Position numbers and translations under genes: made by a program. Below, piece by piece: positions 12,082 to 30,817 of a DNA stretch of 64,000 nucleotides. The number at the start of each line of letters is the position of its first letter. Positions within the stretch are counted from its first letter, which is position 1. This DNA comes from Bacteroidales bacterium (GTDB lineage: Bacteria > Bacteroidota > Bacteroidia > Bacteroidales > UBA932). Location of the stretch: positions 1 through 64,000 of the forward strand of contig JAGBAO010000001.1 in NCBI GenBank assembly GCA_017938925.1, given 5' to 3'. The notes below the pieces were generated by a model. The model ran no database searches. It was not told where the DNA came from and saw only the letters and a program-made list of their open reading frames with translations.

Positions 12082-13641
12082 CTACTGTATTTCGCCGTCA
12101 TATACCAGGACATTGGCATAACGCCTGGTGCCTGGGCCGTTATGACAGGCGAAACCCAGATACAGTCTTCCGTTCTTGATCTTGAGACTTTCCGCTTCCG
12201 CATATCCCTTGTCAGTAAGTCCGAAGGTCTTCAGATCTGCCTTATCGGACACCGCCATGACTTCTGTACGCGGCACCACTATGTCGCCACCATAAGTAAA
12301 TGTAGTCAGATAGGCTTTCGAATAATATTCACTTCCATCCTCGACTGCATTTCCTTCGTAGAAATATATGTAGTCACCTACAACCTCATGTCCCTGATGA
12401 GAATAGGAATACACATCCGTGTCCTTGTTCACGCCGGCCGGGATGGAGAAGCCGGCAAGAGGCTCACACTCGCTCAGATCGCGCGACTCAGGCACTGTCT
12501 TATCCAGAGTCTGGCCTTCGACTTTCATCGTGACATCAATATTCTTTTCCGGAAGAGCCATGACCTGATCGAGGTCAAATACCCGGAAATTTCTATTGCC
12601 GCCCTTGCGCGTACCCAAAAGCAATCTCTTCGATTCAAAATCCACAGACACCTGAAGGTCATATTCTCCGGTACCGGTGAGGAAGAATGTCTGTCCCGCA
12701 GAATGCTCAAAAAGAGTACCCGCAGCAAACTTCACACGAGAGAACGAAAGGTTGTCTCCGTATTCACCGTTGGTCTCGACACCGTTGCTTCCAAGCCAGA
12801 TATAGTCCCCGTCGGCAGCTCTTTCTACAGAAAATTGAGTACCATGTCCGAAATATCTCATGGTCATATACTGAGTTCCGGCGGATTGTCCGGCTCCATC
12901 AGCACGACATATCACAACATCTTTTCCGTCAGGAGACACCTGAGAATAATACATCACTCCATCAGGCATTATGTCAAATCCCTGCATGATCCTATACTCG
13001 TGACACAACAGGACATTCTTACTGTATATCAATGAGTTGGACAGCGGATTAGCCAACGCGTTCCTGAAATCCCAAGGATTTTTGCCCACACAGCTGATCC
13101 TGCAGCTTGCCGAGTAGGTCTTGTAGGATACCGTGATTGCAGCCTCGCCTTCCGACACATAAGACACCTTGCCTGACTCATCCACAACAGCGATATCATC
13201 ATCTGATGAGCTCCACTGCAACACAGCTGACTCATCGGCCGGCTGAAGTGTCGCCGTAAGCACGGTCTCCGATCCCGGTGTCATGAACACCTTGTTCCTG
13301 TCCAGCTTGATGCCGGCCGTGGAGACAACACAGGAGCGGCGGTAGCTTCCCCACATTGCAGTGACCGTGGCCGTGCCGTCAGACACCAGCATAACCAGTC
13401 CGTCCTGACTGACAGTGGCAATGCTTTCGTCCGAGGAGAACCACCGGAATGTGACCGGTGCATCTTCAGGACGCACCGACGCCACGAGCTGATGAGACTC
13501 ACCCACATCCAGATACAGTTCCATGGTATCAAGGTAGAGTGCGGTGATCTGTATCTTTTCCTCGACGCAGGAGGTCAGGGCAGACACCGCAAATGCGATG
13601 ACTGCCAGGACCGGAATATTTTTCAAATTCAAAGACTTCAT
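12082..13641 (-). CDS. Surface lipoprotein with two bacterial Ig-like (Big2) domains
   Basis: 519 aa. Signal peptide and lipobox ALTSC put the lipid on Cys25. Two Big2-type repeats follow (about 30-105 and 110-190), each with the WSSDDxIAxV / GxATVT pattern. The C-terminal 320 residues (from about DFRNALANPLSN) contain repeated YYSQVSPDG- and LLLGTRKGGN-like strands that suggest a beta-propeller, perhaps of the helveticin J type; that reading is tentative. As the last gene of the SusC/D locus it occupies the place of a surface glycan-binding protein. It has no recognised catalytic motif. Confidence 0.8.
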   Translation of the reverse strand: MKSLNLKNIPVLAVIAFAVSALTSCVEEKIQITALYLDTMELYLDVGESHQLVASVRPEDAPVTFRWFSSDESIATVSQDGLVMLVSDGTATVTAMWGSYRRSCVVSTAGIKLDRNKVFMTPGSETVLTATLQPADESAVLQWSSSDDDIAVVDESGKVSYVSEGEAAITVSYKTYSASCRISCVGKNPWDFRNALANPLSNSLIYSKNVLLCHEYRIMQGFDIMPDGVMYYSQVSPDGKDVVICRADGAGQSAGTQYMTMRYFGHGTQFSVERAADGDYIWLGSNGVETNGEYGDNLSFSRVKFAAGTLFEHSAGQTFFLTGTGEYDLQVSVDFESKRLLLGTRKGGNRNFRVFDLDQVMALPEKNIDVTMKVEGQTLDKTVPESRDLSECEPLAGFSIPAGVNKDTDVYSYSHQGHEVVGDYIYFYEGNAVEDGSEYYSKAYLTTFTYGGDIVVPRTEVMAVSDKADLKTFGLTDKGYAEAESLKIKNGRLYLGFACHNGPGTRRYANVLVYDGEIQ

Positions 13642-13660
13642 ATGATTCTCAACTTAATGA

Positions 13661-14965
13661 TTATTCAACTGCCGACACTTTCCACGTTCCTTTCAGACGG
13701 GTTGAACCTCCGCCACCTGTCGTGATTGTATTGTTAAGTGTTATACGGACATCTGCACAAACTCTTGCGCGTATGTAAAGATTGCCGTCTGAAATTCTCG
13801 AAGGCATAGTGAAGGTTGACGAGAAATCTCCCTTGGTGCTGTCGTCCACCGCATCCTGAGCCTGGACATGATATGAGACATTCATCTCCACCCCGTCAAT
13901 TGTCACTGACTTGGTCTGACTGCCGCCACAAGTGGTCCATGATTCACCATCTGCGGAATACTCGATAAGGAAGAATGCAGCAGACGAGCCGGAACCGTTG
14001 ATACTTCCCTCGACCTTGATTGTCCTTCCTTCCTGAAGGTTCTTGACAGGAATGGTCATAAGCCAACAGTCATCCATGTAGAAGCCCTTGATGTAGATAT
14101 GTCCGTTGTTATATCCCCATCCGTTCATAGCCGCCGCTGTCTTGCCTGCCGCTTCCACGGCGGTAATCCGCGCAGCACCATCCTGATTGTCAGATTTTAC
14201 ATAATGTTCTGCCCCTTTCCACTCCGGCTTTGCCGCTTCAAGAGCAGCCACATCGTCGGCACTTCCCTTGGCATCCTTGAAGGTCCACACCACAGGAAGT
14301 CCTTCCAGAACCTTTTCGTCTGCTCCGTAGACCTTTGCACCGGCAGAGGCCACCTGAACTCCATCCACACTTGCGCTTATCGTTATATTTCCATTCCCGG
14401 AAGGTGTTCCTGAAACCGGTATCTCAATATTTCCGGCATCCTCACCAAGCTGAACTGAAACAGGACTGATTTCAAGTCCCGATACAGTGCCAGACACCTC
14501 GCATGTCACCTCCACGTTTTCGTCACCGATCGTATTGGAATATGGGAGATTCAGCATCGCACTGACGATTTCATTCTCCACAAGATCACCGGTCAATGTC
14601 AGCTCTCCCCACACAACGGTTCCGTCGGCCTGAGATACCGTTATCGGATACTGCTTCCCACCGTTTTCAAGATATATGGTTGCAGTGCGCTCCGCCCCTC
14701 TGTTTACGGCAGCATTCACGGATATGAATTCCATACTTCCGTCGCCAACTCCTTCAGAAGGGGTCGTGGACACCCACTCGGAACCCTCAGGCACCACTGT
14801 CTTCCAGGCTCCCAGACACCTGAGAGTGATCTTTCTGTTATTTTCCCTCGGCGTATCAAATCTTACCACATCGGTTTCCCTTACCAGATATTCTTCCTCA
14901 TTCTGGCAGGATCCGACTGATATGACAGCAGCCAAAGCACAGATAGCTATCAATATTCTTTTCAT
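13661..14965 (-). CDS. BACON-like surface lipoprotein following SusD
   Basis: 434 aa from the ATG at 14965, giving MKRILIAICALAAVISVGSC with the lipidated Cys at 20; a second ATG lies three codons upstream. An N-terminal BACON-like Ig module (about 25-110, with the W-x-x-x-x-P-x-x-x-x-x-G pattern and VSQADG) precedes a further Ig-like module and a C-terminal beta-sandwich of about 190 residues rich in Trp and Gly. Genes just after SusD typically encode surface glycan-binding proteins; that is the inferred role. No enzyme motif is seen. Confidence 0.78.
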   Translation of the reverse strand: MKRILIAICALAAVISVGSCQNEEEYLVRETDVVRFDTPRENNRKITLRCLGAWKTVVPEGSEWVSTTPSEGVGDGSMEFISVNAAVNRGAERTATIYLENGGKQYPITVSQADGTVVWGELTLTGDLVENEIVSAMLNLPYSNTIGDENVEVTCEVSGTVSGLEISPVSVQLGEDAGNIEIPVSGTPSGNGNITISASVDGVQVASAGAKVYGADEKVLEGLPVVWTFKDAKGSADDVAALEAAKPEWKGAEHYVKSDNQDGAARITAVEAAGKTAAAMNGWGYNNGHIYIKGFYMDDCWLMTIPVKNLQEGRTIKVEGSINGSGSSAAFFLIEYSADGESWTTCGGSQTKSVTIDGVEMNVSYHVQAQDAVDDSTKGDFSSTFTMPSRISDGNLYIRARVCADVRITLNNTITTGGGGSTRLKGTWKVSAVE

Positions 14966-14984
14966 GATTTCCATTATTTATGAT

Positions 14985-16781
14985 TTACCAACCAGGATTC
15001 TGCCCGAGAGCAGGATTGTCATTTATCGCACTTGTAGGGATCGGACGGACATATTTCTTGTCATCCCATTTGCGGATCATGTTCACATAACAGTTGAGAT
15101 AGCCCTGAGTTCCACCTGTGAGAAGATTCTCTGTTCCCACCTCTATATATGTCACACCTGCTTTTCCTGAAGAAGGTTTCTGTTCCACAAAGCAGACATC
15201 ATCCTTTCCGTTCCCGTCAAGGTCATAAGTCTTGCCTAATTCTCCCACATATATTCCATACCAAGGCTGTTCGAAAAGCTTGCCCATGGACCATCTCATG
15301 ACATCATCATAGCGAAGGTCTTCGAGAAGAAGCTCGACTCCTCTTTCCCTGCGTACCTCAAGGACATACATATCCGTCACTGTGTCAAGGAAATACTGCT
15401 GCATATACGGATCGGCAGAAGTCGGCATATCTCCGGAGACTCCAGCTCTTTCACGCAGAGGACGTATTGTCCTGTTCCATACTTCCGCATCCATTTCTCC
15501 AAGTTCCGCCTTGGCCTCCGCATAGTCAAGAAGCACTTCAGCATATCTGATGATCGGGATGCAGGTACCGCAAGGGGAAGTGTTCTTGTCAAGCGAAGCA
15601 TCATCAATCACCCATTTGATCGGATGATATCCTGTCACGCAGTAAACAAAGTCTGGAGCGTAATTGACAGTCTTTCCTGACTCATTCTTCCTGGTATATC
15701 CCGGATGACGGACACTTTGTGCCAGACGCAGGTCGCGGCCTGCAAACTCTGAGGTAAAGGGAACCTTGTCATAACCTTCCTTATCAGTGAAACGGCTGCC
15801 GTCGAGATTGAGATAGGTGTTTACAAACTGCTTTGTAAGCGACAAGCTGCCGTACTGCATGTTGGTAAAGGTGTTGTTCAATGTATGGGTGACATTCAGA
15901 GCCGTATTATAGACCCGAGCCCAGATGACCTCGTCAGTATGCACCCTTTCGCTGATGAACAGTTCCCTGTACTGACTTGCCTTGTCATCTGATTTATGCA
16001 GGCCATACAGGCCGCTGCCCATCAAAGCTTCGCAGGCGCTGATGCACTCACGGAGATAATTCCTGCTCTCATCCTTGGTCCAAGGCTGGCCGGTGGACGG
16101 ATCAAAGGCATGGTACTTCCTGAATGTTCCTTCATACAAGCATATACGGGCCTTCATGGCCAAAGCTATGTTCTTTGTAATCCTTACGGAATTGACCGCC
16201 AGCTTTTCGTCATACAGGCAATGTTCGCAGGCATAATTGATGTCCTCCAGTACCTTCTGCATGACAAACTCGCGGGAATCCCTGCCTTTGTAAAGAGCCT
16301 CCTTGTCGCTCTCGTCTATCAGACTGTCATAAAAAGGCACTGCACCAAAGGTCTTCACCTTGTTCCAATAGAAATAAGCCCTCCAGAAACGTGCGACACC
16401 CTCATAGTGGGCAAGCACCTCCTCGCTTACCTCTGCCTGACGGAAATTGGCAAGGAAGTAGTTTATATTGCGCAGGTCCTCCCAGCTTCCGACGCTCCAG
16501 CCGCTCTGATCGTCTGCATCATAATTGTCAGTCAGATATTGCCACTCGCCACGCCATGCCATGTAGTCCGACTTGTCATCTCCGGTAGCTACGCTTTCCG
16601 CTGTCGGGATCATGGTCTGAAGGAAGCCGTTCGCATAGGTTTCCAGGTCATTTTCTGTTTTGAAATATGACGGGGCATCGATGGCATTCGGATTTCCCTT
16701 GGACAGGAAGTCCTCGCAGGAAGTCATTGCCGCCACCATCAGCACTATTGTGATCACATATTTATTCATAGTCATCTTCAT
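14985..16781 (-). CDS. SusD-family nutrient-binding outer-membrane lipoprotein
   Basis: 598 aa with lipobox AMTSC and the typical SusD opening CEDFLSKGNPNAID. The N-terminal TPR helices (EGVARFWRAYFYWNKVKTFG) and the SusD/RagB C-terminal region (IPIIRYAEVLLDYAEAKAELG, then LRYDDVMRW) are clear. SusD proteins form the lid of the SusC transporter and bind the incoming ligand at the cell surface. The start codon is one base past the SusC stop, so the pair is translationally linked. The ligand cannot be read from sequence. Confidence 0.95.
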   Translation of the reverse strand: MKMTMNKYVITIVLMVAAMTSCEDFLSKGNPNAIDAPSYFKTENDLETYANGFLQTMIPTAESVATGDDKSDYMAWRGEWQYLTDNYDADDQSGWSVGSWEDLRNINYFLANFRQAEVSEEVLAHYEGVARFWRAYFYWNKVKTFGAVPFYDSLIDESDKEALYKGRDSREFVMQKVLEDINYACEHCLYDEKLAVNSVRITKNIALAMKARICLYEGTFRKYHAFDPSTGQPWTKDESRNYLRECISACEALMGSGLYGLHKSDDKASQYRELFISERVHTDEVIWARVYNTALNVTHTLNNTFTNMQYGSLSLTKQFVNTYLNLDGSRFTDKEGYDKVPFTSEFAGRDLRLAQSVRHPGYTRKNESGKTVNYAPDFVYCVTGYHPIKWVIDDASLDKNTSPCGTCIPIIRYAEVLLDYAEAKAELGEMDAEVWNRTIRPLRERAGVSGDMPTSADPYMQQYFLDTVTDMYVLEVRRERGVELLLEDLRYDDVMRWSMGKLFEQPWYGIYVGELGKTYDLDGNGKDDVCFVEQKPSSGKAGVTYIEVGTENLLTGGTQGYLNCYVNMIRKWDDKKYVRPIPTSAINDNPALGQNPGW

Positions 16782-16782: not shown

Positions 16783-19700
16783 TCAGAATTTAAGATTTAC
16801 ACCGAATGTGAATGTCTTGAGCATCGGGTAGCTGTATCCGTCACCCTCCGATGTCCTGAAGTCTGCGTCTCCTGCCTGGATCACCTCAGGATCATAGTTG
16901 TCGCAATACTCGAACATAGGAGACCATGTCCAGAGGTTCTCACCTGACACGAACAGCTTAAGCCCCTTTATACGCATCCTGCTGCACAGTTCCGGAGAGA
17001 ACGTATAGTCTATGGTCAGGTTCTTGAGACGGACATAGGCGACATTCTGGAGATACCTGTCATTAGGAGTCGTCAACACCCTGTTGTTCGACTTCTCATG
17101 GGTCTGGTATGAGGAGTAGCGGGGCCAATAGGCTGTATCCCAGTTGTCCAGCTCTTCACGATACACATCATTTCCGGTATGAGCCTTCAGCATGTAGCCG
17201 AAAGGACGGTTGTACTGTCCCCAGAAATATCCCGAATCGTAGCGCGGATACCAGTCCTTCCTGCCGACTCCCTGGAAGAAAGCAGAAATGCCTATTCCGT
17301 TCCAGCTTACTCCGAGATTGATACCGAACTGATAGCGTGCACTTGTATTTCCTATGATATCCAGGTCACCGTGATCTGCCAGGGTCTCTGCCCCCTTGTC
17401 AATCTTGCCGTCCTGATTGAGGTCCGCGAACTTGACCTGTCCGGGACGGGTGACCTTGTCAGAAGACTGCAGAAAGGACTGGGTTGCATGTGAGTCGATG
17501 TCATCCTGATCACGGAAAAGTCCTTCCACACGATAGCCCCAGATGTCACCCACAGTCATGCCTTCATAATAGTCTCCGATGTCACCTGTCGGATTGATAT
17601 ATTTGGTTATGACAGTGGTGTTGTCCCACAGCATGGCCTTTACATTATATGAAAAGTCCTTTCCTCCCAGCTTGAAGTCATCTCTCCATCCTACCGAGAG
17701 TTCCCAACCGTCAGTTCGGAGCGAGGCGTTGTTTCCCTTAGGAGAGGATGTTCCATACACTGCCGGGAGGCTGACTCCTACCGTGTACATGTCCGTAGTG
17801 TTCCTGCGATAGAAATCGAATGATGCGCTCAGACGGTTTCTCAGGAAGTCCAGATCTGCTCCGACATCATAAGTCGTGGAGGTTTCCCATGTCAGCGAGA
17901 GAGGTATCGCACCCGGTGCGGTGACATAGCTCTGGAAATTATCCCCGATCACCACAGAAGAGGTCTTTACATCCATATAATCGATATATTGGTACGGAGT
18001 GATGTTTCCGTTACCCATGGAACCGGCAGAGAGACGTAGCTTGAAGTTGTCCAGCCAGCTGTCAGACCAGTCCATCCATCTTTCTTCCGACAGTCTCCAC
18101 GCAAAAGAAGCCGATGGGAAGAAGCCCCACTTGGAATTTTCAGGGAACTTTGAAGAACCGTCATATCTGGCACTCACTTCCAGCAGATACCTGCTCCTGT
18201 AGCTGTAGTTGATTCGTCCGAAGAAACCCACATAACTCCAGTCGTAACCGTCAGCCACCGGGTTGTCGGTAACACCGTTCATAAGGCCGAAGCTCGGCTT
18301 GTCCGGGACATTGAGACCTGTTCTCCTTATGGTCTGCGTCCTGTAGGACTTGGTTTCAAGATTCCATCCTGCAAGGACTTTCAGCATGTGGTCTTCCCCG
18401 AGCTTAGGAGTATATTCCGCAAAAATATTGCTTGACAGATAGTTTGTGTCGTATCTTACATTCTGCAAGGTGCTTCCCTGACTCTGATTCACTGTGGTCG
18501 TGGAAGTCGGAGAGGTATAGCCTGTGTACATGTTGGTCACGCGGTCACGTGAGTTGCGGCCGTAAAGATATGACAGGTCTCCCTGAAGCTTGAGTACATC
18601 CTTGATGATGTCTGCCTGAAGACTGAAACTCTCCGTGAGCGTGAACTTGTCCTCCTGCTGATAACTTGTACCTTCAGAGAAAGCAGCATAACCGTTCAGC
18701 ACCGCTGCATAGGTCCACGTCCCGTCCGGATTGACAGGAACACTGACAGGCTGACCGGCATGCTCAAGCATACGGGGCACAAGCTGCTGGCTGTAATAAA
18801 GCATAGGCTGATGATAATCCACCACCACAAAATTGAGGTTATTGCTTATCTTGAGCCAGTCCGTCACCTGTATATCTCCCTTAGCACGCACATTATACTG
18901 ACGGAAACGCTCGTCACCCACCTTATAGATTCCATCCTGATCATAAAAACGTCCGGACACATAATATCTGGCCTTGCTGTTGCCTCCGGATACACTTATG
19001 TTGTGCTCGTGAGAGATGTTGCTGTCCTTGAAAAAGAGTCGTGTCCAGTCTGTGTTGCCGAAATACTCATATATGCCGGCATCATTTATCCTGATGCGCT
19101 CCAATGAACCGTCTACATTACGGCGTCCCAGCTCTGTGTACCACTCTGTCGAATACGGCACAATGTTATTGATATGGGTATTCAGTTCCTTGGAACCGTT
19201 GTAGTATCCGTTCCACGCATCCATATATCCTGTAGTCCACTCATATCCGTTCGTGACCAGTTCCGGCCATACGGTGCGGCTGTGGACTGACACGCTTCCG
19301 TTGTAGGAGATGGAGACATCCCCGTCCTTGGCCGATTTCGTAGTCACGAGAATGACTCCGAATGCACCTCTGGCTCCATAAATGGCAGCAGATGAAGCAT
19401 CCTTCAGAACAGACACGCTGGCAATATCCTGAGGATTGACGGTTTCGAGATTACCTTCCACTCCGTCAATGAGTATAAGGGCCCCGCCGCCTGAGCCTAT
19501 AGAGCTCGCGCCACGGATATCGATGGTAGCCGAACGCGAAGGCTTTCCGTCCCTCATGGATATGTTGAGGTTAGGAACAGATCCCTGGAGGGAACGTGAA
19601 ATGCTCGGATTGGAACGGTCCTCGAACACTTCGCTGTCAATCTTATCAACAGCACCCACAAGGTCGCGTTTCTTCATGGAACCGTAACCCACGACAACCA

Positions 19701-20295
19701 CATCATCCAGAAGCTCGGATGAAGGTTTCATAAGTATATCTATCTTGCCCTTGTTTCCTACAGCAATTTCAACTGACTCGAAGCCAAGACAATCCACCTG
19801 AAGTACGGGAGCTGAAGATGAAGACGGTATCTCAATGGAATAGAAGCCGTCAATGTCCGTAATGGCACCTATGGAGGTACCCTTAAGGATCACAGCCGCA
19901 CCTATGACAGGCACCCCGTCGGCATCAGCCACCACGCCCTTCACAACAAGCGGTCCCCTTGCAGGTGCCGCCTTGAGGCGTCTGGTGAGAATGACACTGC
20001 CGCCTTCTACCCTATAGGCAATATCCGTATCGGAAAATACAATATCAAGAGCCCTCTTCAGCGTCTCATTATTGATGGAAACTGAAACTTTAGTCTGAAG
20101 GTTGCACTCATCGTTATATACAAAAAGGTATCTCGTCTGCCTTTCTATGGCATCGATACACTCTTTCAGCGGGGCATCCTTCAGCACCAGCGACACCTTG
20201 CTGTCCTGAGCATATGCCCCTCCCGGCAATCCCAGCAGGACGACCAGAAGCAGGGCATAGGCACACCGCATAAATAAAGTCCGGTTTTTAGTCAT
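16783..20295 (-). CDS. SusC-family TonB-dependent transporter with STN signalling domain
   Basis: 1170 aa. A signal peptide ends near AYAQDS; then a secretin/TonB short N-terminal (STN) domain (about 32-105), a carboxypeptidase regulatory-like domain (about 115-195), a TonB box and plug (DDVVVVGYGSMKKRDLVGAV) and the beta-barrel, ending in Phe. The STN domain is the part that talks to a FecR anti-sigma factor, and such a factor with its sigma factor heads this locus. This fits outer-membrane sensing of the imported ligand. It pairs with the SusD one base downstream. Length is normal for SusC with STN. Confidence 0.96.
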   Translation of the reverse strand: MTKNRTLFMRCAYALLLVVLLGLPGGAYAQDSKVSLVLKDAPLKECIDAIERQTRYLFVYNDECNLQTKVSVSINNETLKRALDIVFSDTDIAYRVEGGSVILTRRLKAAPARGPLVVKGVVADADGVPVIGAAVILKGTSIGAITDIDGFYSIEIPSSSSAPVLQVDCLGFESVEIAVGNKGKIDILMKPSSELLDDVVVVGYGSMKKRDLVGAVDKIDSEVFEDRSNPSISRSLQGSVPNLNISMRDGKPSRSATIDIRGASSIGSGGGALILIDGVEGNLETVNPQDIASVSVLKDASSAAIYGARGAFGVILVTTKSAKDGDVSISYNGSVSVHSRTVWPELVTNGYEWTTGYMDAWNGYYNGSKELNTHINNIVPYSTEWYTELGRRNVDGSLERIRINDAGIYEYFGNTDWTRLFFKDSNISHEHNISVSGGNSKARYYVSGRFYDQDGIYKVGDERFRQYNVRAKGDIQVTDWLKISNNLNFVVVDYHQPMLYYSQQLVPRMLEHAGQPVSVPVNPDGTWTYAAVLNGYAAFSEGTSYQQEDKFTLTESFSLQADIIKDVLKLQGDLSYLYGRNSRDRVTNMYTGYTSPTSTTTVNQSQGSTLQNVRYDTNYLSSNIFAEYTPKLGEDHMLKVLAGWNLETKSYRTQTIRRTGLNVPDKPSFGLMNGVTDNPVADGYDWSYVGFFGRINYSYRSRYLLEVSARYDGSSKFPENSKWGFFPSASFAWRLSEERWMDWSDSWLDNFKLRLSAGSMGNGNITPYQYIDYMDVKTSSVVIGDNFQSYVTAPGAIPLSLTWETSTTYDVGADLDFLRNRLSASFDFYRRNTTDMYTVGVSLPAVYGTSSPKGNNASLRTDGWELSVGWRDDFKLGGKDFSYNVKAMLWDNTTVITKYINPTGDIGDYYEGMTVGDIWGYRVEGLFRDQDDIDSHATQSFLQSSDKVTRPGQVKFADLNQDGKIDKGAETLADHGDLDIIGNTSARYQFGINLGVSWNGIGISAFFQGVGRKDWYPRYDSGYFWGQYNRPFGYMLKAHTGNDVYREELDNWDTAYWPRYSSYQTHEKSNNRVLTTPNDRYLQNVAYVRLKNLTIDYTFSPELCSRMRIKGLKLFVSGENLWTWSPMFEYCDNYDPEVIQAGDADFRTSEGDGYSYPMLKTFTFGVNLKF

Positions 20296-23300: not shown

Positions 23301-23571
23301 CCGAGAAATATGCTATCCCTGGATCGCCCGGATGAATCTTCATGTCAGACATTGTCCACTTACGGCAGTCATCGTCAAAGACAGCGACAGCATCTCCCTC
23401 CTCCCATGCTACAGACATGTCATCCTGCAGCATTGTCCTTGTGCTGACATGCTCCTGTCCACGGGCGCCAAAGGTCATATATGTTCCGGAAACTGGCATT
23501 TCCGGTTCTGTCATATCGGTACATGCCACGGCAAGGATACCTAAAGACAGCAGAATTATGTTTTTTCGCAT
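20314..23571 (-). CDS. Lipoprotein: fimbrillin-like domain, GLUG repeats and SGNH hydrolase
   Basis: 1085 aa. Lipobox LAVAC puts the lipid on Cys17. Residues about 30-265 form a fimbrillin-like domain shared with the two preceding lipoproteins (NVCGLLAFTVKNEG; FPGEYSHLTLTF). Residues about 285-800 hold some nine GLUG motifs (GGVVGxx/GGIVGxx), predicted to form a beta-helix. Residues 805-1085 are an SGNH/GDSL hydrolase with Ser814 (GDSIS), Gly866, Asn916 (GGTND) and His1062 (CHPG). The aspartate expected three residues before that His is Gly1059, so it may use a dyad or Asp1053. An esterase acting on a surface polymer is inferred. Confidence 0.85.
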   Translation of the reverse strand: MRKNIILLSLGILAVACTDMTEPEMPVSGTYMTFGARGQEHVSTRTMLQDDMSVAWEEGDAVAVFDDDCRKWTMSDMKIHPGDPGIAYFSGECKPESAWWYGVYPASAAEGIDDDGKMTVVLPSQQNARAGSFAADMNLAVAYTRNAEDGLNFKNVCGLLAFTVKNEGIRKIELKAAEKASGALCGTAVVSMEAAGAPRVEAVTSAEGSVVLSGDFEKGKTYYMAVFPGEYSHLTLTFTDELYGTAVYTSEDPLVVESNTVTVVSDMEIPEDRFVYESLWEGDGTEASPYLISDAQGFMTFVRVLNTERAYERYAGCHYSLMASIDLKDTPVTPVGAVASRPFKGVFDGNTNTISNLQVDHAGTSASGLFGYVEDAAIRDVVLENSDVESDYIFCGSIAGHVRNSVIEDIRVKGKIRAYTSGIAVEACEYAPVRTNNSGYNGGVVGLAMNSTVRNCRYDGTVNFYGKFSGGVVGVSYDSVIENCAVEKESTVNVYYHFSGGVVGRAMGADNMIKGCSFEGNFTSVGYCSGGIVGQLLGGAVEDCVLGSYAYFGADKHAVGGIVGSAQPLNDITVKNCASYGTIRGAYSVGGIVGYAGIGQGADSDKDLMLNASGDVTIRDCAFVRGSVTATSAFSKGYALAGGIIGWGYGNNSQSITVAGCYSRPGLIQTTYGSNVNGVLAGISAFQHNVTAVIENCYSSFTNTDMLVCSEQAADGSRWVAGVHVRSCATSAIRNCYSDTSLPVGSQNYGEETGCCQYNVTQMVDGTLLAALQSGSTGTVWTAGADGYPTVSGLPADPNVKPVAKKRVSIIGDSISTFKGWIPGGHSAHYPATDGTLTLVNETYWYRLIHDYMESAQVEVNIAFSGSTVTNTTEENYTAKYGDANNAWWHNSFSERFAACGGVGNPDIIIVHGGTNDWAHDCDPLAPGVAIRNDASNIYGGSAPSEDIMNGIYAEADAAKTRTEINALPDGTFCQAYCKLMCQIRERYPQCKVVCIIGDYLNSAIEQSIIQMAEHYGARTVNLFRVNGFNDLGGYSPTTLANKGTQPNMPKHDYSGATGGCHPGSEAMAFMAAKIYDELGAWLEE

Positions 23572-23584: not shown

Positions 23585-26056
23585 TTAGTTTGTAAACCAC
23601 ACTTCCGCAGAGTTTTCACCTGTCATGGAAGCAAAAGCAGATGATGCATACACGTTTCCGAACGGATCTTCAACCCGCACTTCGATGTTTTTGCCTTCGA
23701 TACCGTCACTGAACCCGGTATCGAAATAGAAGAGATGGTTGCATGTCACCTGATAGTGGGAGTTGTCATGGCGTCCTGACCAGTAGGTCCTGTCATAGAC
23801 ACAGTCATAGATGCCCTTCCTGTATTCTATAAGCTGATTCCAGGTCCACCAGTCCCTGTTGTTTCCGGCAGCCTCGCCTGCAGTAAGCGATGAGATGCGG
23901 TTATTGGAAGGGATGACAACGGTACCGACAGTCTCGACATCGGCCTTGAGATGTTTCATCTGTCCCACCTTGATGCCGTCCACATACACATACGGATACC
24001 ATTTGAAATTAGAATTAGCACTCGCATGGAACACATTTGCCACGATGTATCCCTTCGGCATCCCCCATGTATAAGGATCCAGATATGGACCGGTCAGGAA
24101 ACCCTGGGTGCTGCCTGGAATCTCCTTGCTTGCATCATAAAGCCTCATCTGGTATGTATCCGGCTGTCCCATTGACTTGTACACCATATTGCTGTAACCA
24201 TACTTTTCCATCATGGAAGTCTTGCTCTCATCAAATTCATAGACAGAATAGCCGGCAGGAGAGCCATCCGAGCAAAGCTTGTTGTACCAGAAAGAACCGC
24301 AAGCCGCAGGATGGACTATCTCCCTGATCATCGTCCCACCATGGTCTGTATGGAATCTATAAAGTGAATAATGGGAGTGGCCGGCAAGATTCATCACTGA
24401 GCTGAATTGTCCCAGCAAGGTCCTGACCTTAGCGTAGTTGGCATCGTTCCTACATGTTGTAAGAGGTATATGAGTACAGAATATGAGAGCTGCCGATCTG
24501 TCAACTGCAGCAAGGTCTGCTTCAAGCCAGCTGACATCCTCCGGTGAAAAACCAGCGGAATAATTGTCTGCATCCGCTGTTCCGTCCGGCAGAACGTTAT
24601 TCATGCATACTATATGGGCATTGCCTCTGTTCCATGAATAATTGAGCGGGCCGAAGTATTTCCTGAATGTCTCTGAGCTCGGCACTGCATTGTCCCCCGA
24701 ATACCAGTCATGGTTACCTATGACCGGAAAGAAATGCACACCTGTTGAAGCATGGTTCAATGCCGGTTTCATTTTCTGCCACACAGACTCTTCGCTGTTG
24801 AACAGAAGGTCACCGAGAATGACCCCATAGAGGTTTTCCTTTCCTGCCGTATAAGCCTTCACATCGCTTGCTCCATACCGGCTGAAATACGAGACGGCAT
24901 TGGCATTCTTGGTCTGAGGGTCGGCCAGTACGCAGAGACTCCATTTCTCTTCCCTGCCACCGGGAAGAGCTTTGAGTGTGAAATCATAGCGTCTTACAGA
25001 TGTCTCGTATCTTGAGTATATTGCCGGGAATCCGTCTGAATCATAAGGGATTTCATACTCTGACGGAACGGATACGGTCACAAACTCGATTCCCTCGCTT
25101 GCCGGCATGCTGTAGAACCCGTTGGCATCTGTCACAGACACACTGCGGCAATCACTCACCGCCACACCAGAAACGGGATTGCCGTCTGCATCCTTCACAT
25201 ATCCGTAGATATCCCCCTCCGTGAGGAACTTCTCTCCTTCAACCGCCATTCCTGCGACAAAGGTCACTGAATTTCTCTGCACCACAAGAGGATCATCAGA
25301 AGTATAGCTGGCAGATCTTCCGTTGACATCGGTGTATGTCAGGGTCATATCCGAATATTCTCCCGGAAACACCGTCATATAATATGTCTGTCCGTACTCA
25401 AAATCACCTTTCAGTTCCACTTCGCCACTGCCGGAGACAACACTTTCCACCTCAGGAAGACTGTCTTCATTCATGACAATGACTGCCGTTCCGCAGAGAG
25501 AACCGCCTTTCTTCTCCGAAGCCGAAAGAGTGATTGAAGCAATGCCTTCATTCTTCACCGTTATGGCCAGAAGACCGCATACATTCTGAAACTGCAGATC
25601 ATTTTCTTCTCCTTCCGCATAAGCAACCGTGAGATTGGTCTCACTTGCGAACGAACCGTTCCTTAATGCCTGAGAAGAAGACAGGGTTGCCGTAAGCTTG
25701 CCGTCTTCGTCAAGACTGACAGCAGAAGAAGCCGGATAGGCGGCATAATAGCACGCACTGGCCGGGTTGCAAAGTCCGGAAAACACGGCCTTGCTCGGGT
25801 TGGATGGATCGACAGCTATCTCAGACAGCGTCCAGGCTTTCTGCCTGTCATCAAACACCTTTATGGCATCGTCTGTCTCCCACTCCACATAACGGCCATC
25901 TTTCAGAACCGTCCTGCTGACCGGCTCTGTCTGATGAGAAACACAGAAGGACATGCGTTCCCCTGAAACTTCCTCAAACTGTTCTTCCGGCTGTATATTG
26001 GCAGTACAAGCTGCCGCCATGAGACACAGCGGCAGCAGATATCTTCCTAATTCCAT
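23585..26056 (-). CDS. Lipoprotein: fimbrillin-like domain fused to calcineurin-like phosphoesterase
   Basis: 823 aa. Lipobox MAAAC puts the lipid on Cys17. Residues about 30-270 are the same fimbrillin-like domain as in the neighbours; 280-365 form a carboxypeptidase-regulatory-like (MetallophosN) module; 370-575 are the metallophosphatase core with Asp379 (ADPQ), Asp416 (GD), GNHD 447-450, His529 (THIP) and GHSH 559-562; the remainder is a C-terminal beta domain. The first motif has Gln where DxH is usual, which I recall being common in this subfamily. Substrate unknown; a phosphodiester or phosphomonoester on a surface glycan is a guess. It overlaps the preceding gene by 10 bases. Confidence 0.87.
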   Translation of the reverse strand: MELGRYLLPLCLMAAACTANIQPEEQFEEVSGERMSFCVSHQTEPVSRTVLKDGRYVEWETDDAIKVFDDRQKAWTLSEIAVDPSNPSKAVFSGLCNPASACYYAAYPASSAVSLDEDGKLTATLSSSQALRNGSFASETNLTVAYAEGEENDLQFQNVCGLLAITVKNEGIASITLSASEKKGGSLCGTAVIVMNEDSLPEVESVVSGSGEVELKGDFEYGQTYYMTVFPGEYSDMTLTYTDVNGRSASYTSDDPLVVQRNSVTFVAGMAVEGEKFLTEGDIYGYVKDADGNPVSGVAVSDCRSVSVTDANGFYSMPASEGIEFVTVSVPSEYEIPYDSDGFPAIYSRYETSVRRYDFTLKALPGGREEKWSLCVLADPQTKNANAVSYFSRYGASDVKAYTAGKENLYGVILGDLLFNSEESVWQKMKPALNHASTGVHFFPVIGNHDWYSGDNAVPSSETFRKYFGPLNYSWNRGNAHIVCMNNVLPDGTADADNYSAGFSPEDVSWLEADLAAVDRSAALIFCTHIPLTTCRNDANYAKVRTLLGQFSSVMNLAGHSHYSLYRFHTDHGGTMIREIVHPAACGSFWYNKLCSDGSPAGYSVYEFDESKTSMMEKYGYSNMVYKSMGQPDTYQMRLYDASKEIPGSTQGFLTGPYLDPYTWGMPKGYIVANVFHASANSNFKWYPYVYVDGIKVGQMKHLKADVETVGTVVIPSNNRISSLTAGEAAGNNRDWWTWNQLIEYRKGIYDCVYDRTYWSGRHDNSHYQVTCNHLFYFDTGFSDGIEGKNIEVRVEDPFGNVYASSAFASMTGENSAEVWFTN

Positions 26057-29019
26057 GTTCCGGTCCAGTTAGAAGCCGGCTGAAAAGCTGACGTCGTCGA
26101 GCCGCTGTCTGTAGGGAGAGAATTGACGAATTCGACATACTCCGAATTGACTGTAAGCTGAAACTCAGTATTATTTATCCTTCCTACAAGAGGGGTTGTA
26201 TCCTTGCTTACAACTGCTCCTACAAATTTTGAAGTATTCAATACCTTCAAGGTCTTGCCCGACTGTCCCAATGTAATCGTACATGCCTTTGTCGGATCAT
26301 ATTGTCCGCCATAGATCAATCCGTTATATCCTGAAGCATTTGCCGCCTTCAGGTCTACACTCAGATACGTATCAGAGATAGTGGGATTATCCTTTCCGCG
26401 AACAGCTGCGACCAAGCCACCTGTATACGTAGCGGTTGTTGACTGATTGTCAACGATACCTGAAAATCCTGACGCGGATATATTTGCATTACAATAAGCC
26501 GCAAAACCACCGACTTCACTATCTTTCACGGCATTCTTAAGAGTAACAGCACAATTCAACACAAAGCAACCTGTTATAGTTGATGCCGCCTGACCCGCTA
26601 AGCCTCCTAATCTTACCTTCTTGTTTGTCGTGGTAACGTTTCCGCTGTTAGTGCAATTATCCAATGCATTGCTGATACCGGCAATTCCTCCTACATAATT
26701 ATAGCCAGTTGCGGAATTTTCACCTAACACAACAGAAATGGCTCCACTATTGCTGCTGCCTGAAATCTTCTTGTCAATGCGACTGGTAATACCACCGACA
26801 CAAGCCGCGTTGTTCTGGTTTGTTGCCGTACCTGATGTAGTCAGAGTCAAGGCAGCTGCATTAGTACTTGTTTCTATTGCAGTACCTCCCCATGGTCTTC
26901 CGATAACACCACCGAGACAAGTATAATATGCAGTAGTGTTTACGGTGATTTTACCTGATGCAAGATTATCACAACCGGACACAGCAACTCTGGCATAACC
27001 TGCGATGCCACCAAAAAGAGGCTCTGCCTTATTGCCAGACACCATGTAGCATGTAATCTCCACTTCTCCCTCATTGTCACAATTCTGAAGAACACTGCCT
27101 GCAACATCTGTTGCATCTCCGATGACTCCTACCACGCCTCCGAAGGCCGGCTTCGGATAACCACCTGCAAAGTCGACTCCAGCTGTACCGTTTCCGGCAT
27201 ATCCAGTATATACGACCTTTCCGCTATTGCTACAGTTTCTCATAGAATAGCCCACACACCCGGCAACTCCACCGACAGCTGGTCTTGTACATGCTTTAGA
27301 AGCGTCTGTCGTACTGTTTGTATATGTAACTGCACCTGAATTGGTGCAAGACTCCAGATCTCCTTCGCAATATCCGATGACACCACCCATATTGGTATAT
27401 GAGCCACTGCCGTTCACACCCACAGTGTAGGTTATATCTCCAGAATTGACACAGCCTGTAAAAAGACCGGTATTTACAAAAGCACTCGGATTTGACTCAT
27501 CCTTATAGGACGCATGCACAGGAGTCGCACCTGCAACACCACCTATGCTGTTCTGCTTGACCGTACTTTTTGCATCGAATACAATATTTCCGAAGTTCAT
27601 GCAATTCTTGGCCACAGCCTTTCCGGGTTCCCTGTCTCCTTTGCAATAGCCGACCACTCCTCCGACGATAATATTTTCAGTCTGAGCATCATTGAGAGTG
27701 ATTGTGATGTTTCCGTGATTCTCGCAGCCTTCGATATAGCCCTCATCATTCTGCCCGATAAGCGGTGCAAATCTCCAGGTTGTGCTCATAGAAGTCGGAG
27801 CCACCGATATGTCCGCATAGTTCTTGCAGCCGATACATTTGCCGACATCTCCCTGCTTGGTTATCAGCACTCCGAAATCAGGGACATCAAGCTCGGACGG
27901 TGCAGTAAGAGTACAAGACTTATCTATGAAAACGTTTTTCACTGTGCCGTTGTTCTCAGCGATGAGGGTGCCTGCATTGTTCTTCCAGTTCTTGATGGAA
28001 TGTTTCCTTCCATCAAGTTCACCATAAAGAACAGTTGCCGCAGTCACTGTGGCACCTGAAAGATCCAGGTCATTAAGGATGACACCTCTCACCGGAGCAT
28101 CGGCTGTTGATTCCGAAGCCTTAGCAAGGAATGCATTGAGGGACTCCACATCAGTGATGTAACCGTTATACACATATTCATTCTCGGTACTCTTGCCGAC
28201 ACTGCGAACTACAGAGCGGCTGACTACGATGTCATTGGGAACCGTATATACCACTGTCTTTCCCTCGCCCTTGGTGATGGTCATAGTCAGACCTTTAATA
28301 GTACCAGGAAGGACTGAAACATAGTATGTTCCTACAGCGAAAGTCTCTCCTTCCGGCTGAATGGTCACCTTGTTGCTCGCTTCAGCTACCGACTCGACAG
28401 AAGGCTTGTCCGAATAAGCTACGACAGCCTTTCCTGCTAGAGCATTATCTGCCCCCCCCTGCAAGCAGACTTCAGTAACGGTCGCATCCTCAATCTCGAT
28501 TGCAAGCATACCGCATACATTATAGAAATATATGGCATTTTCTTCATCAGCCATGCCCACAGCCACCAAAGATGCCGGATCCACATTTCCCTTGGCTGCT
28601 ATCGGAGTCTGTTCTGCAGGGACAACCACCTGAAGTTTTCCAGTTGAGGTCAGTGCGTTTGCCTCGTTATGCGGAGTTACCGCATAATACGGTCCGACCG
28701 ACTCGACAGAGCCACTGAACTGCGCCACATTTTCTGTTATACTGCCCGCTTCCAGGACACCGTGGGCTCCTGTATTTCCAAAGACACTGATTCTGTCATC
28801 CTCAGTCCATTGCACTTTAGTAGCATCGCTGTTAAGAGACGACTTCGCCTCCGGTTCAGTTCCTTCCTCTGCAAGAGCTGAGAAGGTCATAGGAACCATC
28901 ACCACCTCGCCTGAAGGCAGTTCATCCTGCCCCTGCTGAGGGTCGGTAATTTCTTTTGCACATGACATGATTGCCGCAAATCCCAGAGCAATCAAAAACA
29001 GGTTGTAAATTTTTCTCAT
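26047..29019 (-). CDS. Large GLUG-repeat lipoprotein with fimbrillin-like domain
   Basis: 990 aa. Lipobox AIMSC puts the lipid on Cys20. An N-terminal fimbrillin-like domain (about 35-275, with NVCGMLAIEIED and SVLPGTIKGLTMTI) is followed by about twelve GLUG-type motifs (GGVVGYC, GGVIGRP, GGIAGIS and so on) from about 430 to 960, predicting a long right-handed beta-helix. No catalytic motif is visible, so a binding or adhesion role is inferred. A run of eight G residues in the coding strand (28452-28459, near codons 187-190) is a possible slippage site. It follows the 44-aa peptide gene. Confidence 0.82.
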   Translation of the reverse strand: MRKIYNLFLIALGFAAIMSCAKEITDPQQGQDELPSGEVVMVPMTFSALAEEGTEPEAKSSLNSDATKVQWTEDDRISVFGNTGAHGVLEAGSITENVAQFSGSVESVGPYYAVTPHNEANALTSTGKLQVVVPAEQTPIAAKGNVDPASLVAVGMADEENAIYFYNVCGMLAIEIEDATVTEVCLQGGADNALAGKAVVAYSDKPSVESVAEASNKVTIQPEGETFAVGTYYVSVLPGTIKGLTMTITKGEGKTVVYTVPNDIVVSRSVVRSVGKSTENEYVYNGYITDVESLNAFLAKASESTADAPVRGVILNDLDLSGATVTAATVLYGELDGRKHSIKNWKNNAGTLIAENNGTVKNVFIDKSCTLTAPSELDVPDFGVLITKQGDVGKCIGCKNYADISVAPTSMSTTWRFAPLIGQNDEGYIEGCENHGNITITLNDAQTENIIVGGVVGYCKGDREPGKAVAKNCMNFGNIVFDAKSTVKQNSIGGVAGATPVHASYKDESNPSAFVNTGLFTGCVNSGDITYTVGVNGSGSYTNMGGVIGYCEGDLESCTNSGAVTYTNSTTDASKACTRPAVGGVAGCVGYSMRNCSNSGKVVYTGYAGNGTAGVDFAGGYPKPAFGGVVGVIGDATDVAGSVLQNCDNEGEVEITCYMVSGNKAEPLFGGIAGYARVAVSGCDNLASGKITVNTTAYYTCLGGVIGRPWGGTAIETSTNAAALTLTTSGTATNQNNAACVGGITSRIDKKISGSSNSGAISVVLGENSATGYNYVGGIAGISNALDNCTNSGNVTTTNKKVRLGGLAGQAASTITGCFVLNCAVTLKNAVKDSEVGGFAAYCNANISASGFSGIVDNQSTTATYTGGLVAAVRGKDNPTISDTYLSVDLKAANASGYNGLIYGGQYDPTKACTITLGQSGKTLKVLNTSKFVGAVVSKDTTPLVGRINNTEFQLTVNSEYVEFVNSLPTDSGSTTSAFQPASNWTGTWN

Positions 29020-29042: not shown

Positions 29043-29177
29043 TTAGGAAAAGATAGATTCATCCTGGGACCATGTGAAGCCTTCACGTTCAGCCTCAACT
29101 GAACCAGACAGGACACATTGTTCCATCTGGATTTCTAACAAAACTGTCATTGGTGAGACATAATCTGATAATTTCAT
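29043..29177 (-). CDS. 44-aa peptide gene between FecR and the GLUG lipoprotein
   Basis: ATG 29177 to TAA 29043. The peptide starts MKLSDYVSPM, continues as an amphipathic stretch with CVLSGSVEAE, and ends in an acidic tail with one Trp (FTWSQDESIFS). It resembles a class of very short Bacteroidales proteins of the pattern MKKxYxxPxxxVxxxE...(L/C)xxSG followed by an acidic tail, often next to surface-protein operons; that class is recalled, not searched. It stands alone in the 190-base gap between the anti-sigma gene and the first lipoprotein gene, in the direction of the operon. No function is known to me. Confidence 0.55.
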   Translation of the reverse strand: MKLSDYVSPMTVLLEIQMEQCVLSGSVEAEREGFTWSQDESIFS

Positions 29178-29209
29178 GTTGATTAATTTTAGTATTTGTT
29201 AATAATTGA

Positions 29210-30139
29210 TTATCTGATGGTTATCATGCTGTTGTCAACATCATACTCGTACTCGAAACCGATGAGTATCTTGAGTACATTCAGCGAGTGCACCACACCG
29301 TCCGTATTACGGAATTTACCTGTACACCTTCTGTCTGCCAGTGCAGGATTCTTCAATTCGATGGTGACATCGTAGTATTTGCCAAACTCGGCAATGAGTT
29401 CACTGAAAGTCACATCTGCCAGACTCAACACGCCATCCTTCCAGCTGAACTGTTCAAAATCGGACAGTGGTGCCATCTGAAGCGAACCGTCTGCAGTCTC
29501 TACGACATACTGATTGTCCTTGAGCACTATCGCTTCAGTCTTTCCACTGTCTGAAGAAATCATTACCGAACCACTTATCAATGATGTTTCAAAAGGAATA
29601 TCCGAATTATCGTATGAGACAACATTGAAGACTGTTCCCAACACCTCCACATCATATTTCTTCGTATGGACAACGAATGGAAGGTCCTCATTACGAGCAA
29701 CATCGAAATAGCCTTCTCCATACAATGTGACTTCCCTTCTTTCAGTCCCGAAAGAGGTGGGATACTCAAGGCGTGTTCCGGAATTCAGCCACACCTTGGT
29801 TCCGTCAGAAAGAATGAGCTCAGTCCTTTGACCGGACGGGACATTGATCACCTGGACTCCATCGGTAACATTGGCGTTATGAGAAAGGGAAAACAGGCCG
29901 AACATGAGCAGCGCGACTGCGGCAGCACTTGCCACTCCAAAAAGAACACGGCGTACGAAAGGTTTTGCCTGAGCCTTAGTCTGCGGCCTTGAATACATCA
30001 TGAGTGCCAGCCAGGTCAGTCTTTCCTGCTCCAGTCTGTTTCTGTTTTCCTGTGAAGCCTCAGCCCATTCCATAACCAGCACATCTTCTTCTTTACTGGT
30101 ATGACCGTTAAAATATCGGTAAAGCAGCTCTTTTTCCAT
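29210..30139 (-). CDS. FecR-family anti-sigma factor
   Basis: 309 aa from the ATG at 30139 (MEKELLYRYFNGHTSKEE); the 14-codon extension upstream is Phe-rich and unlikely. A cytoplasmic N-terminal sigma-binding helix bundle (about 1-75) is followed by a single membrane helix (VLFGVASAAAVALLMFGLF), a periplasmic FecR domain (VPSGQRTELILSDGTKVWLN) and a C-terminal STN-like DUF4974 domain. It would hold the adjacent ECF sigma factor until the STN domain of the SusC protein signals ligand binding. The gene order sigma, anti-sigma, operon is the standard Bacteroides arrangement. Confidence 0.93.
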   Translation of the reverse strand: MEKELLYRYFNGHTSKEEDVLVMEWAEASQENRNRLEQERLTWLALMMYSRPQTKAQAKPFVRRVLFGVASAAAVALLMFGLFSLSHNANVTDGVQVINVPSGQRTELILSDGTKVWLNSGTRLEYPTSFGTERREVTLYGEGYFDVARNEDLPFVVHTKKYDVEVLGTVFNVVSYDNSDIPFETSLISGSVMISSDSGKTEAIVLKDNQYVVETADGSLQMAPLSDFEQFSWKDGVLSLADVTFSELIAEFGKYYDVTIELKNPALADRRCTGKFRNTDGVVHSLNVLKILIGFEYEYDVDNSMITIR

Positions 30140-30214
30140 AAAAAAAATAAATGCTATTAATGAAAACTCATCATATAGCACTTAACCCTTTCTTACCCCT
30201 AAAGAAAACGAGAA

Positions 30215-30817
30215 CTATTTCAGAAAAAATATCAAAAAGACCAGGATATAATCCTGCAAGGATATCCTCAAGACTTTCAACACCTTGGTAATGTGATATT
30301 CGACCGCCTTGACGGATATGCCCATAATCTGGGCAATCTCGGAGTTCATCTTGTTGGAAAAACGGCTCAACTCAAAGACCGTTCTTGTCTGCTCCGGCAT
30401 TTTGGAGAGAACCTCGTTGACGATTGCGCGAATCTCATCAGTAAAAAGAGAATGGATCGTAAAGTTCTCAAGAGAATTGACACGAAACTCAAGCTCTTTC
30501 TTCATAGTCTGGGACATCTTGTCTGATATCTTGTGATGAGTGAGCTCGTTCCGAAGATAATTCAACGACTTATGACGCAGCGTCATAAGAATGTAGGCCG
30601 CGACATTACAGTCGCTCGGCAAGGTTTCTCTGCGGACCCAATAATCCATAAAGGCATCTGCAGACAAGTTTTCCGCAACAGCATAGTCACGTACAAACGA
30701 GTTTGCAAACTTTATGAATGGCTCCCTATAAGTTTCATATACTTCAACAAAAAGAGCCGTCTGTTTCTTCAATTTCAGGTCCACCCCGCAAATATATAAA
30801 ATAAATTGAATACGCAT
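30215..30817 (-). CDS. ECF RNA polymerase sigma factor (Bacteroidota expansion family)
   Basis: Sigma2 region at YREPFIKFANSFVRDYAVAENLSADAF, sigma4 helix-turn-helix at MPEQTRTVFELSRFSNKMNSE and IAQIMGISVKAVEYHITKVL. It should direct transcription of the SusC/D locus downstream when released by FecR. The end given is the longest ATG frame (200 aa). A TATATTTG promoter element lies inside the first codons (30789-30796), so the true start is probably the TTG at 30772 (LKKQTALFVEVYETYREPF, matching usual family N-termini) or the GTG at 30784. Confidence 0.92.
   Translation of the reverse strand: MRIQFILYICGVDLKLKKQTALFVEVYETYREPFIKFANSFVRDYAVAENLSADAFMDYWVRRETLPSDCNVAAYILMTLRHKSLNYLRNELTHHKISDKMSQTMKKELEFRVNSLENFTIHSLFTDEIRAIVNEVLSKMPEQTRTVFELSRFSNKMNSEIAQIMGISVKAVEYHITKVLKVLRISLQDYILVFLIFFLK
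30789..30796 (-). promoter_or_regulatory. -7 promoter element (TATATTTG) overlapping the 5' end of the sigma gene
   Basis: TAnnTTTG match on the minus strand within the first ten codons of the longest frame. If used, transcription starts near 30783, so the ATG at 30817 is not in the message and a non-ATG start downstream is needed. Confidence 0.5.

Follow-up and report, generated by a model that had tools for sequence, protein, structure and literature searches.

SusCD systems of the Bacteroidales are mostly read as carbohydrate importers and are assigned by their carbohydrate-active enzymes (CAZymes). The classical ECF/FecR-controlled polysaccharide utilisation loci (PULs) of this order combine a SusC carrying an STN domain with SusD, surface lipoproteins, FecR and an ECF sigma factor, and signalling from STN-SusC through FecR to the sigma factor is an established circuit. 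In E. coli, glycerophosphodiesters and glycerol-3-phosphate (G3P) are used through GlpQ, GlpT and GlpABC. The nearest published layout to the one described here is that of the Pus clusters PUSI and PUSII (PusCD) of Flavobacterium johnsoniae, in which a SusCD-like pair stands beside phosphodiesterases or a phosphatase, CAZymes being absent; these clusters are induced by phosphate depletion, and phosphate scavenging and outer-membrane uptake of organic phosphorus have been proposed for them (PMC8115612). Only this paper came close among the open-access matches listed, with subscription papers outside that scope: the matches listed held no PUL for teichoic acid, glycerophosphate, phospholipid or mannitol phosphate, and the use of SusCD uptake machinery for importing phosphorylated sugar alcohols whole is hardly described. 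Here we analyse a locus in a 64,000-base stretch (the window) of a Bacteroidales bacterium (UBA932; GCA_017938925.1, JAGBAO010000001.1, positions 1 to 64,000, forward strand), where a sigma-factor operon encoding SusC, SusD, a metallophosphoesterase (MPE) and an SGNH esterase is followed by genes for MtlD, a glycerophosphodiester phosphodiesterase (GDPD) and an OPA-like transporter.

We consider it just probable that the locus serves the substrate-sensing, TonB-dependent uptake of a phosphodiester-linked, acyl-esterified glycoconjugate bearing alditol or glycerol phosphates, from which polyol phosphates would be imported intact. Like the Pus clusters, the sigma operon joins SusCD and a phosphoesterase without a CAZyme; its ECF sigma/FecR control, SGNH esterase, OPA-like transporter and polyol-phosphate dehydrogenases set it apart from Fjoh_4168-4173 by description, so that published systems anticipate the set in part, at the level of the concept, a finding that the initial annotation had listed against its reading, and the control and polyol-phosphate catabolism differ. 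It has the control and SusCD parts of the classical ECF/FecR PULs, but its operon hydrolases are a phosphoesterase and an esterase, with glycosidases only in a separate downstream unit. With GlpQ-GlpT-GlpABC, of which one relative (L055) holds a similar cluster, it has in common a GDPD, a GlpT-like transporter and neighbouring polyol-phosphate dehydrogenases, whereas here these are coupled to a SusCD importer and a surface MPE, and the dehydrogenase is MtlD. The locus and its relatives suggest a SusCD class that prediction from CAZymes would overlook, its defining features being phosphoesterases, a phosphate-ester transporter and polyol-phosphate dehydrogenases.

Sigma-factor operon and downstream unit

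As the initial annotation had it, all named parts of the operon lie on one strand with short gaps: nine proteins and a 44-amino-acid (aa) open reading frame (ORF) run from 30817 to 12082 on the minus strand. At the head stand the ECF sigma factor (30215..30817; TIGR02985, 143.5 bits, cut-off 126.4) and the FecR anti-sigma factor with FecR and FecR_C domains (29210..30181), followed by the 44-aa ORF (29043..29177), which comes from the ORF listing, carries no assigned role and has weak look-alikes in the other loci examined (best 44-46% over 25-26 aa, E 0.24 and 1.2). Then come a 990-aa GLUG-repeat lipoprotein (26047..29019), the 823-aa MPE lipoprotein (23585..26056; MetallophosN, Metallophos and MetallophosC all over cut-off), a 1085-aa GLUG and SGNH/GDSL esterase lipoprotein (20314..23571; PF16255, 33.0, cut-off 29.2), a 1170-aa SusC/RagA TonB-dependent transporter with an STN signalling domain (16783..20295; TIGR04056, 852, cut-off 368), a 598-aa SusD lipoprotein (14985..16781), a 437-aa BACON-domain lipoprotein (13661..14974) and a 519-aa Big_2 lipoprotein with a sub-threshold beta-propeller match (12082..13641). 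Proteins listed without a score were named from domain scans, and lipoprotein calls are readings of an N-terminal Cys. With ORF starts as listed, intergenic gaps are at most 33 bp and one pair overlaps by 10 bp, so the run from ECF to Big_2 reads as one operon; an alternative later ATG of FecR at 30136 makes one gap 78 bp.

The component domains of the ECF/FecR/STN-SusC control that had been proposed are all present. Of the features by which a PUL is recognised, the locus has adjacent susC and susD and a regulator of known PUL type (ECF sigma, FecR, STN); the nine scanned operon proteins gave no Pfam glycoside-hydrolase match at E up to 0.1, and a separate unit, some 6-11 kb further along this strand, holds GH31 and GH2 genes. 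The absence of a glycosidase noted initially therefore stands for the operon and fails for the strand, where GH31 and GH2 follow behind two hairpins. Nor are the phosphoesterase and esterase the only enzymes here, as had been claimed: the strand continues with genes for GDPD, SASA, GH31 and GH2, and a GH78, GH31 or GH2 is present in several related SusCD-MPE loci.

MPE is built from an N-terminal domain common to the SGNH protein, then MetallophosN-Metallophos-MetallophosC. This domain spans about 300 aa at 50% identity between the two proteins (C31:22684-23556, on the 114,816-base contig C31 whose end is window base 1). MPE keeps the D, GD, GNHD, H and GHxH metal-ligand motifs, with DPQ rather than DxH as motif I; in a 16-sequence alignment including the window, the metal-ligand motif columns are invariant except motif I, where the Asp is invariant and DPQ occurs in 14/16 sequences, as it does in 29/29 of a second set. 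Its profile relatives in the PDB are phosphatases and phosphodiesterases, namely the dimetal phosphatase 2nxf (E 2.9e-8), purple acid phosphatases, SMPDL3A and, weakly, the phosphohydrolase 2zo9/3d03. The nearest solved structure to the GLUG-SGNH protein is 4m8k (E 7.5e-16).

MPE adjoins SGNH in the window, and the same holds for G157:C55 (L118) and for a paralogous locus in the source genome (L091; SusC-SusD-MPE-GLUG-SGNH); the two are fused in one polypeptide of 1570-1690 aa in three Bacteroidales assemblies (L190:11584-16563, L195:10415-15487 and L207:10389-15101, the last titled sheep rumen), with GNHD in the MPE region and GDSIST and GTND in the SGNH region. The phosphoesterase-esterase pair recognised in the initial annotation is borne out by this arrangement, and these neighbourhoods and fusions support the view that the two enzymes belong together and would act on one substrate. 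As a separate observation, each fusion adjoins a second large MPE protein, and the stretches examined there carry no SusCD label.

The same-strand run continues beyond the sigma operon to base 1323 in the order mtlD, GDPD, OPA-like, nagB, SASA, GH31, GH2, with folD next; the region lies between folD and purD. The sigma operon is followed by a hairpin (12047..12072, minus; z -2.47) with 11 pairs in its stem and its 3' side running into UUUU, and a promoter-like TTTG-N19-TATCTTTG box (12000..12030, minus) lies about 12 bp upstream of mtlD. This box, which we take to match the Bacteroides-type consensus, occurs three times in the window against 0.49 expected, with at least three matches in 1/100 shuffles. 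Next, all on the minus strand, are mtlD, for mannitol-1-phosphate 5-dehydrogenase (10833..11987; NF002646, 502.4 bits, cut-off 368; nearest solved structure 3h2z, E 1.8e-122), the GDPD lipoprotein gene (9852..10826; Pfam, 64.1 bits, cut-off 23.6; nearest solved structure 3mz2, E 1.1e-54), that of the MFS transporter (8530..9840), with GlpT/UhpC relatives, and nagB, for glucosamine-6-phosphate deaminase (7683..8543, likely start 8477; curated cut-off passed), after which a strong terminator-like hairpin precedes a U-tract (7595..7650, minus; z -4.47). A terminator scan listed neither hairpin. From the two hairpins and the mtlD promoter-like box we infer at least three transcription units.

The transporter scores 309.1 bits, below the TIGR00881 cut-off of 407.75, and is therefore named OPA-like. 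Its nearest solved structure is GlpT (E 2.9e-62), of which R45, K46, K80, H165 and R269 are conserved; R29, K65, H164 and R261 align to R45, K80, H165 and R269, which are presumably substrate-site residues of GlpT. The mannitol PTS (phosphotransferase system) operon mtlA-mtlD offers a further comparison, since mtlD passes its curated cut-off and relatives of the locus carry MtlA and PtsI. The source genome has no PTS_EIIC (PF02378) match at E up to 10, in a search that gave matches in 8/14 controls, so mtlD there is not fed by a known mannitol PTS. That assembly (2.67 Mb, 34 contigs, about 92% complete) has 46 TonB-plug matches; by coordinates, four of its six MetallophosC places lie no more than 10 kb from one of these.

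Related loci and gene neighbourhoods

Relatives of the SusD, OPA, mtlD, GDPD, GH2 and GH31 proteins were sought in 151 genomes of the genus. Locus labels rest on BLAST to seeds, with family scans for some genes; the gene maps keep the longest ORF, which means that a gene can be masked by a longer one in antisense, and two kinds of label are artefacts of the seeds, namely GDPD on some BACON proteins (L076_10) and the cross-labelling of PtsI and nagB. In named genomes MPE alone as query found no relative, and an alignment query did retrieve relatives; the resulting named-record set was limited to 80 matches and, being chosen by MPE, gives no frequencies for the system.

The best SusD relative among the matches listed is in G157 (63%), the next being at most 52%. 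There, a G3P-dehydrogenase-like gene and an OPA relative lie upstream of SusC, and BACON, Big_2, GLUG, DUF4886, Exo_endo_phos, S1/P1 nuclease and GLUG-SGNH genes lie downstream of SusD. Several of the parts are combined in two single-strand loci: Proteiniphilum UBA5384 (L152), with ECF-FecR-SusC-SusD-MPE-BACON/fn3-fn3-mtlD-MtlA-PtsI-GDPD-OPA, and G223 (L097), with SusC-SusD-MPE, one intervening gene, then mtlD (64%)-OPA (79%)-GDPD (70%)-GDPD-MtlA-PtsI. Neither carries a glycosidase in the stretch examined, so homologous loci do not always include a CAZyme, a result that the initial annotation had named as decisive against it had it been otherwise. In a third genome (L131, G096) a run of GDPD, GLUG, Exo_endo_phos, S1/P1, GDPD, a PtsI-labelled ORF, mtlD, MtlA and OPA converges on MPE-SusD-SusC. 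Elsewhere the dehydrogenase is of another kind. In L055 (G204) a histidine phosphatase, GDPD, GlpA, GlpB, GlpC, a GlpT-like transporter and an opposite-strand BACON/fn3 gene come before SusC-SusD-MPE; GlpA is over its cut-off, GDPD and GlpT are below theirs, and the names GlpB, GlpC and histidine phosphatase are readings of the sequence, without family match or family scan. In Maribellus (L223, L227), SusC-SusD, a 770-aa gene, MPE and Big2 precede G1PDH-like, HAD and OPA genes, the 770-aa gene being GH78-like in Maribellus luteus (L223), which also has a GDPD fragment. A search for the gene order in other Bacteroidales thus finds several parts joined in L152, L097 and L223, with SGNH unmatched in Proteiniphilum and Maribellus.

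Two further observations concern such loci. A second recurrent type, at SusD places of 36-38% (L241, L259, L262, L242), consists of a GlpT-like transporter, MPE, SusC and SusD, some clusters adding BACON, a metallo-beta-lactamase-like protein (its seed below the Pfam cut-off) and a second MPE. A record titled Spirochaetia (L185) holds a Proteiniphilum-like SusCD-MPE-GH78-mtlD-MtlA locus, probably through mis-binning.

The set of OPA relatives, 49 places at 56% or more besides the window's, came to 43 distinct loci once six had been lost to the ORF caller or truncation and one duplicate dropped. A relative of a polyol-phosphate dehydrogenase lies within 9 kb of the OPA relative in 29/43 and within 100 bp in 18/43, against 0/40 control SusD-centred loci, a set centred on a different gene. 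Conversely, mtlD orthologs of at least 53% have an OPA match within 10 kb in 14 of 21 cases; three of the seven others are on contigs shorter than 8 kb, and in one (G236) a short OPA-like ORF lies at a distance of 5.6 kb. The genes are not housekeeping ones, since mtlD occurs in 25/151 genomes (E 1e-60) and close GDPD relatives in four others of the 151 (E 1e-50), adjoining an OPA match in three of those four. In a 57-row tree of the transporter, which drew long-branch warnings, the kind of dehydrogenase lying within 4 kb changes 16 times against 25.6 when labels are shuffled, with 0/200 shuffles as low, a clustering to which near-copies contribute; the window's transporter sits in a 16-row clade holding 7/8 mtlD-labelled rows, itself counted. 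The G3P and glycerol-1-phosphate (G1P) dehydrogenase labels used here denote homology, with Pfam cut-offs met and NCBIfam cut-offs unmet.

MPE and transporter also coincide at SusD loci, where OPA is present in 8/16 with MPE and 5/46 without (p 0.0024; 62 loci, shared descent uncorrected). These loci comprise a close group (22 of the 24 places with at least 44% SusD identity among the matches listed, window's excluded; mean DNA covered 14.9 kb) and 40 controls at 36-42%, hand-picked from the same list (mean 18.9 kb). Among 14 classes, uncorrected p fell below 0.05 for polyol-phosphate dehydrogenase (3/22 vs 0/40, p 0.041) and PAP (3/22 vs 0/40, p 0.041); the SGNH/DUF4886 class (5/22 vs 1/40, p 0.018) and the EEP class were set aside because their seeds contain BACON-like regions. 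The farther controls also hold MPE and OPA clusters, so the theme extends beyond this SusD clade.

Proposed function and competing readings

On the favoured reading, the BACON, Big_2 and GLUG lipoproteins and SusD would bind a polymer at the surface, where the SGNH esterase would strip ester groups and MPE would cut phosphate diesters, as their families suggest, on a presumed common substrate. STN-SusC would import the pieces and signal via FecR to the ECF sigma factor, in line with the domain set, and a presumably periplasmic GDPD lipoprotein would free alditol phosphates. These would be imported still phosphorylated by the OPA-like antiporter, to judge from its phosphate-site residues and gene pairing, and MtlD would oxidise mannitol-1-phosphate to fructose-6-phosphate, a slot that relatives of G3P or G1P dehydrogenase fill in related loci. 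Gram-positive envelope polymers of the teichoic-acid kind would be the leading candidate substrate. The phosphorylated ligand suggested initially gains from the neighbouring GDPD, OPA-like and MtlD genes, which suit a phosphorylated polymer more than they do a neutral glycan, and the substrate class itself stays a proposal. If it is a Gram-positive envelope polymer, the locus would give Bacteroidales a way, open to testing, of feeding on other bacteria and recovering both carbon and phosphate; a cultured relative exists in Maribellus luteus strain XSD2.

We put forward only tentatively, and with some doubt, the wider idea that Bacteroidales have a family of TonB-dependent loci devoted to teichoic-acid-type polymers: phosphoesterase-esterase pairs at the surface would release alditol phosphates, which would enter the cell with their phosphate and be oxidised by a dehydrogenase matched to the polymer. 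MtlD would correspond to mannitol phosphate, G3P dehydrogenase to wall teichoic acid, and G1P dehydrogenase to lipoteichoic acid or lipoglycans, following the stereochemistry of these polymers. If true, the envelopes of Gram-positive neighbours would be a dedicated food source.

Several findings weigh against the proposed uptake locus. Within 9 kb of an OPA relative, MPE occurs in only 4/43 loci and SusC/SusD in 16/43, roughly as their abundance predicts by our own estimate, and several of the eight SusD loci with both MPE and OPA look like related clusters. SusD relatedness was rejected as a guide to function, with no clear difference between close and farther loci in MPE (8/22 vs 8/40, p 0.23), OPA (6/22 vs 7/40, p 0.52) or GDPD (3/22 vs 2/40, p 0.34). 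A SusD label is present in only 17/79 named MPE loci, so there is no general tie between the MPE family and SusCD, and the SGNH protein has no match in Proteiniphilum and two Maribellus genomes, in a search without positive control, so it seems an optional part. The transporter falls short of its curated OPA cut-off. In L152, L097, L131 and others mtlD accompanies a mannitol PTS and could serve free mannitol, and a PTS could be missing from the incomplete source assembly. Finally, the hairpin and its own promoter-like box set mtlD apart, and co-regulation with the sigma operon does not follow.

It is rather unlikely, in our view, that the locus is an ordinary glycan PUL for a neutral or lightly phosphorylated polysaccharide with, for example, beta-galactofuranose and alpha-glucosyl units, in which the downstream SASA-GH31-GH2 unit supplies the glycosidases, MPE trims decorations and mtlD-GDPD-OPA-nagB is an unrelated neighbour. 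That unit lies downstream on the same minus strand and consists of a SASA-family carbohydrate esterase (6050..7483), a GH31 glycosidase (3244..6114) and a GH2 glycosidase (1323..3323), all of uncertain membership in the system. GH31 is nearest to 7wj9, an entry annotated as alpha-xylosidase, and GH2 to 7sf2, then to the beta-D-galactofuranosidase 9j6n (E 7.9e-139), with the NE and GE(Y/F)GG motifs in common, which we take to be catalytic. The hairpin between sigma operon and mtlD suits this alternative, as does the presence of GH31, GH2 or GH78 in the SusCD-MPE loci L186, L262, L072/L157 (one contig seen twice), L175, L185 and L223. On the other side are the sigma operon without a glycosidase and the loci L152 and L097, which join SusCD-MPE with mtlD-OPA-GDPD and hold no glycosidase in the stretch examined. 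Moreover, GH2 orthologs occur in 95/151 genomes and GH31 orthologs in 65/151, with an OPA match within 10 kb in 1/99 and 2/69 places, respectively, and GH31 within 5 kb of GH2 in 4/69 places; being common and rarely near OPA, the unit looks generic and may be a chance neighbour, which equally weakens its link to the proposed phosphoconjugate system. GH31, GH2 and SASA as core parts of that system were accordingly unsupported by ortholog neighbourhoods, although L122, L186 and L262 do show linkage of such genes. If GH2 did belong, a relative of beta-galactofuranosidases would suit galactofuranose-bearing lipoglycans.

We regard as improbable a Pus-like scavenging of organic phosphorus, aimed at phospholipid head groups or nucleic acids and mainly for phosphate. 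A SusCD pair beside phosphodiesterases without CAZymes is the published Pus layout (PMC8115612), genes for Exo_endo_phos, S1/P1 nuclease and nucleoside hydrolase occur among relatives of the locus, and SGNH and GDPD could deacylate and split phospholipids. Control here is by substrate-sensing ECF/FecR, however, with no phosphate regulon visible (PhoBR and Pho boxes were not searched for), phosphorylated polyols fed into dehydrogenases point to carbon use, and the scanned proteins of the run 1323-30817 gave no nuclease or nucleoside match. A nucleic-acid substrate in particular, suggested by the relatives' nuclease genes, ranks low because the scanned window proteins include no such genes and the linked dehydrogenases act on polyol phosphates.

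That the locus is two independent modules, a PUL of unassigned ligand and a mannitol/glycerophosphodiester turnover cluster (mtlD-GDPD-OPA-nagB), agrees with the separate transcription signals and with mtlD near a mannitol PTS and OPA without MPE nearby in several genomes (among them L099, L100, L103-L105, L107), but is very improbable given the limited spread of mtlD and close GDPD relatives across the 151 genomes and the joining of both to SusCD-MPE in G223 and Proteiniphilum.

Other genes and observations

Beyond purD the window holds further genes of note. A minus-strand run at 35281-46005, which looks like a sugar-acid operon, encodes an AIRS-domain protein, a sugar porter, a xylose-isomerase-like TIM barrel, an FGGY kinase, an SDR protein, the mannonate dehydratase UxuA and a second GH31 of 979 aa with a sub-threshold PA14. 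A GH109-type Gfo/Idh/MocA oxidoreductase (32143-33570) lies between purD and a purH-type gene, and a 533-aa CotH-kinase domain protein is encoded at 49125-50726. At the contig break an open frame occupies 1-111 and ends at 111; it presumably represents the C-terminal end of a transposase. In the window's genome, the SusD places G000:C5:281529-283244 and G000:C13:21032-22747 have identical scores and are likely to be a duplicated stretch or an assembly duplicate.

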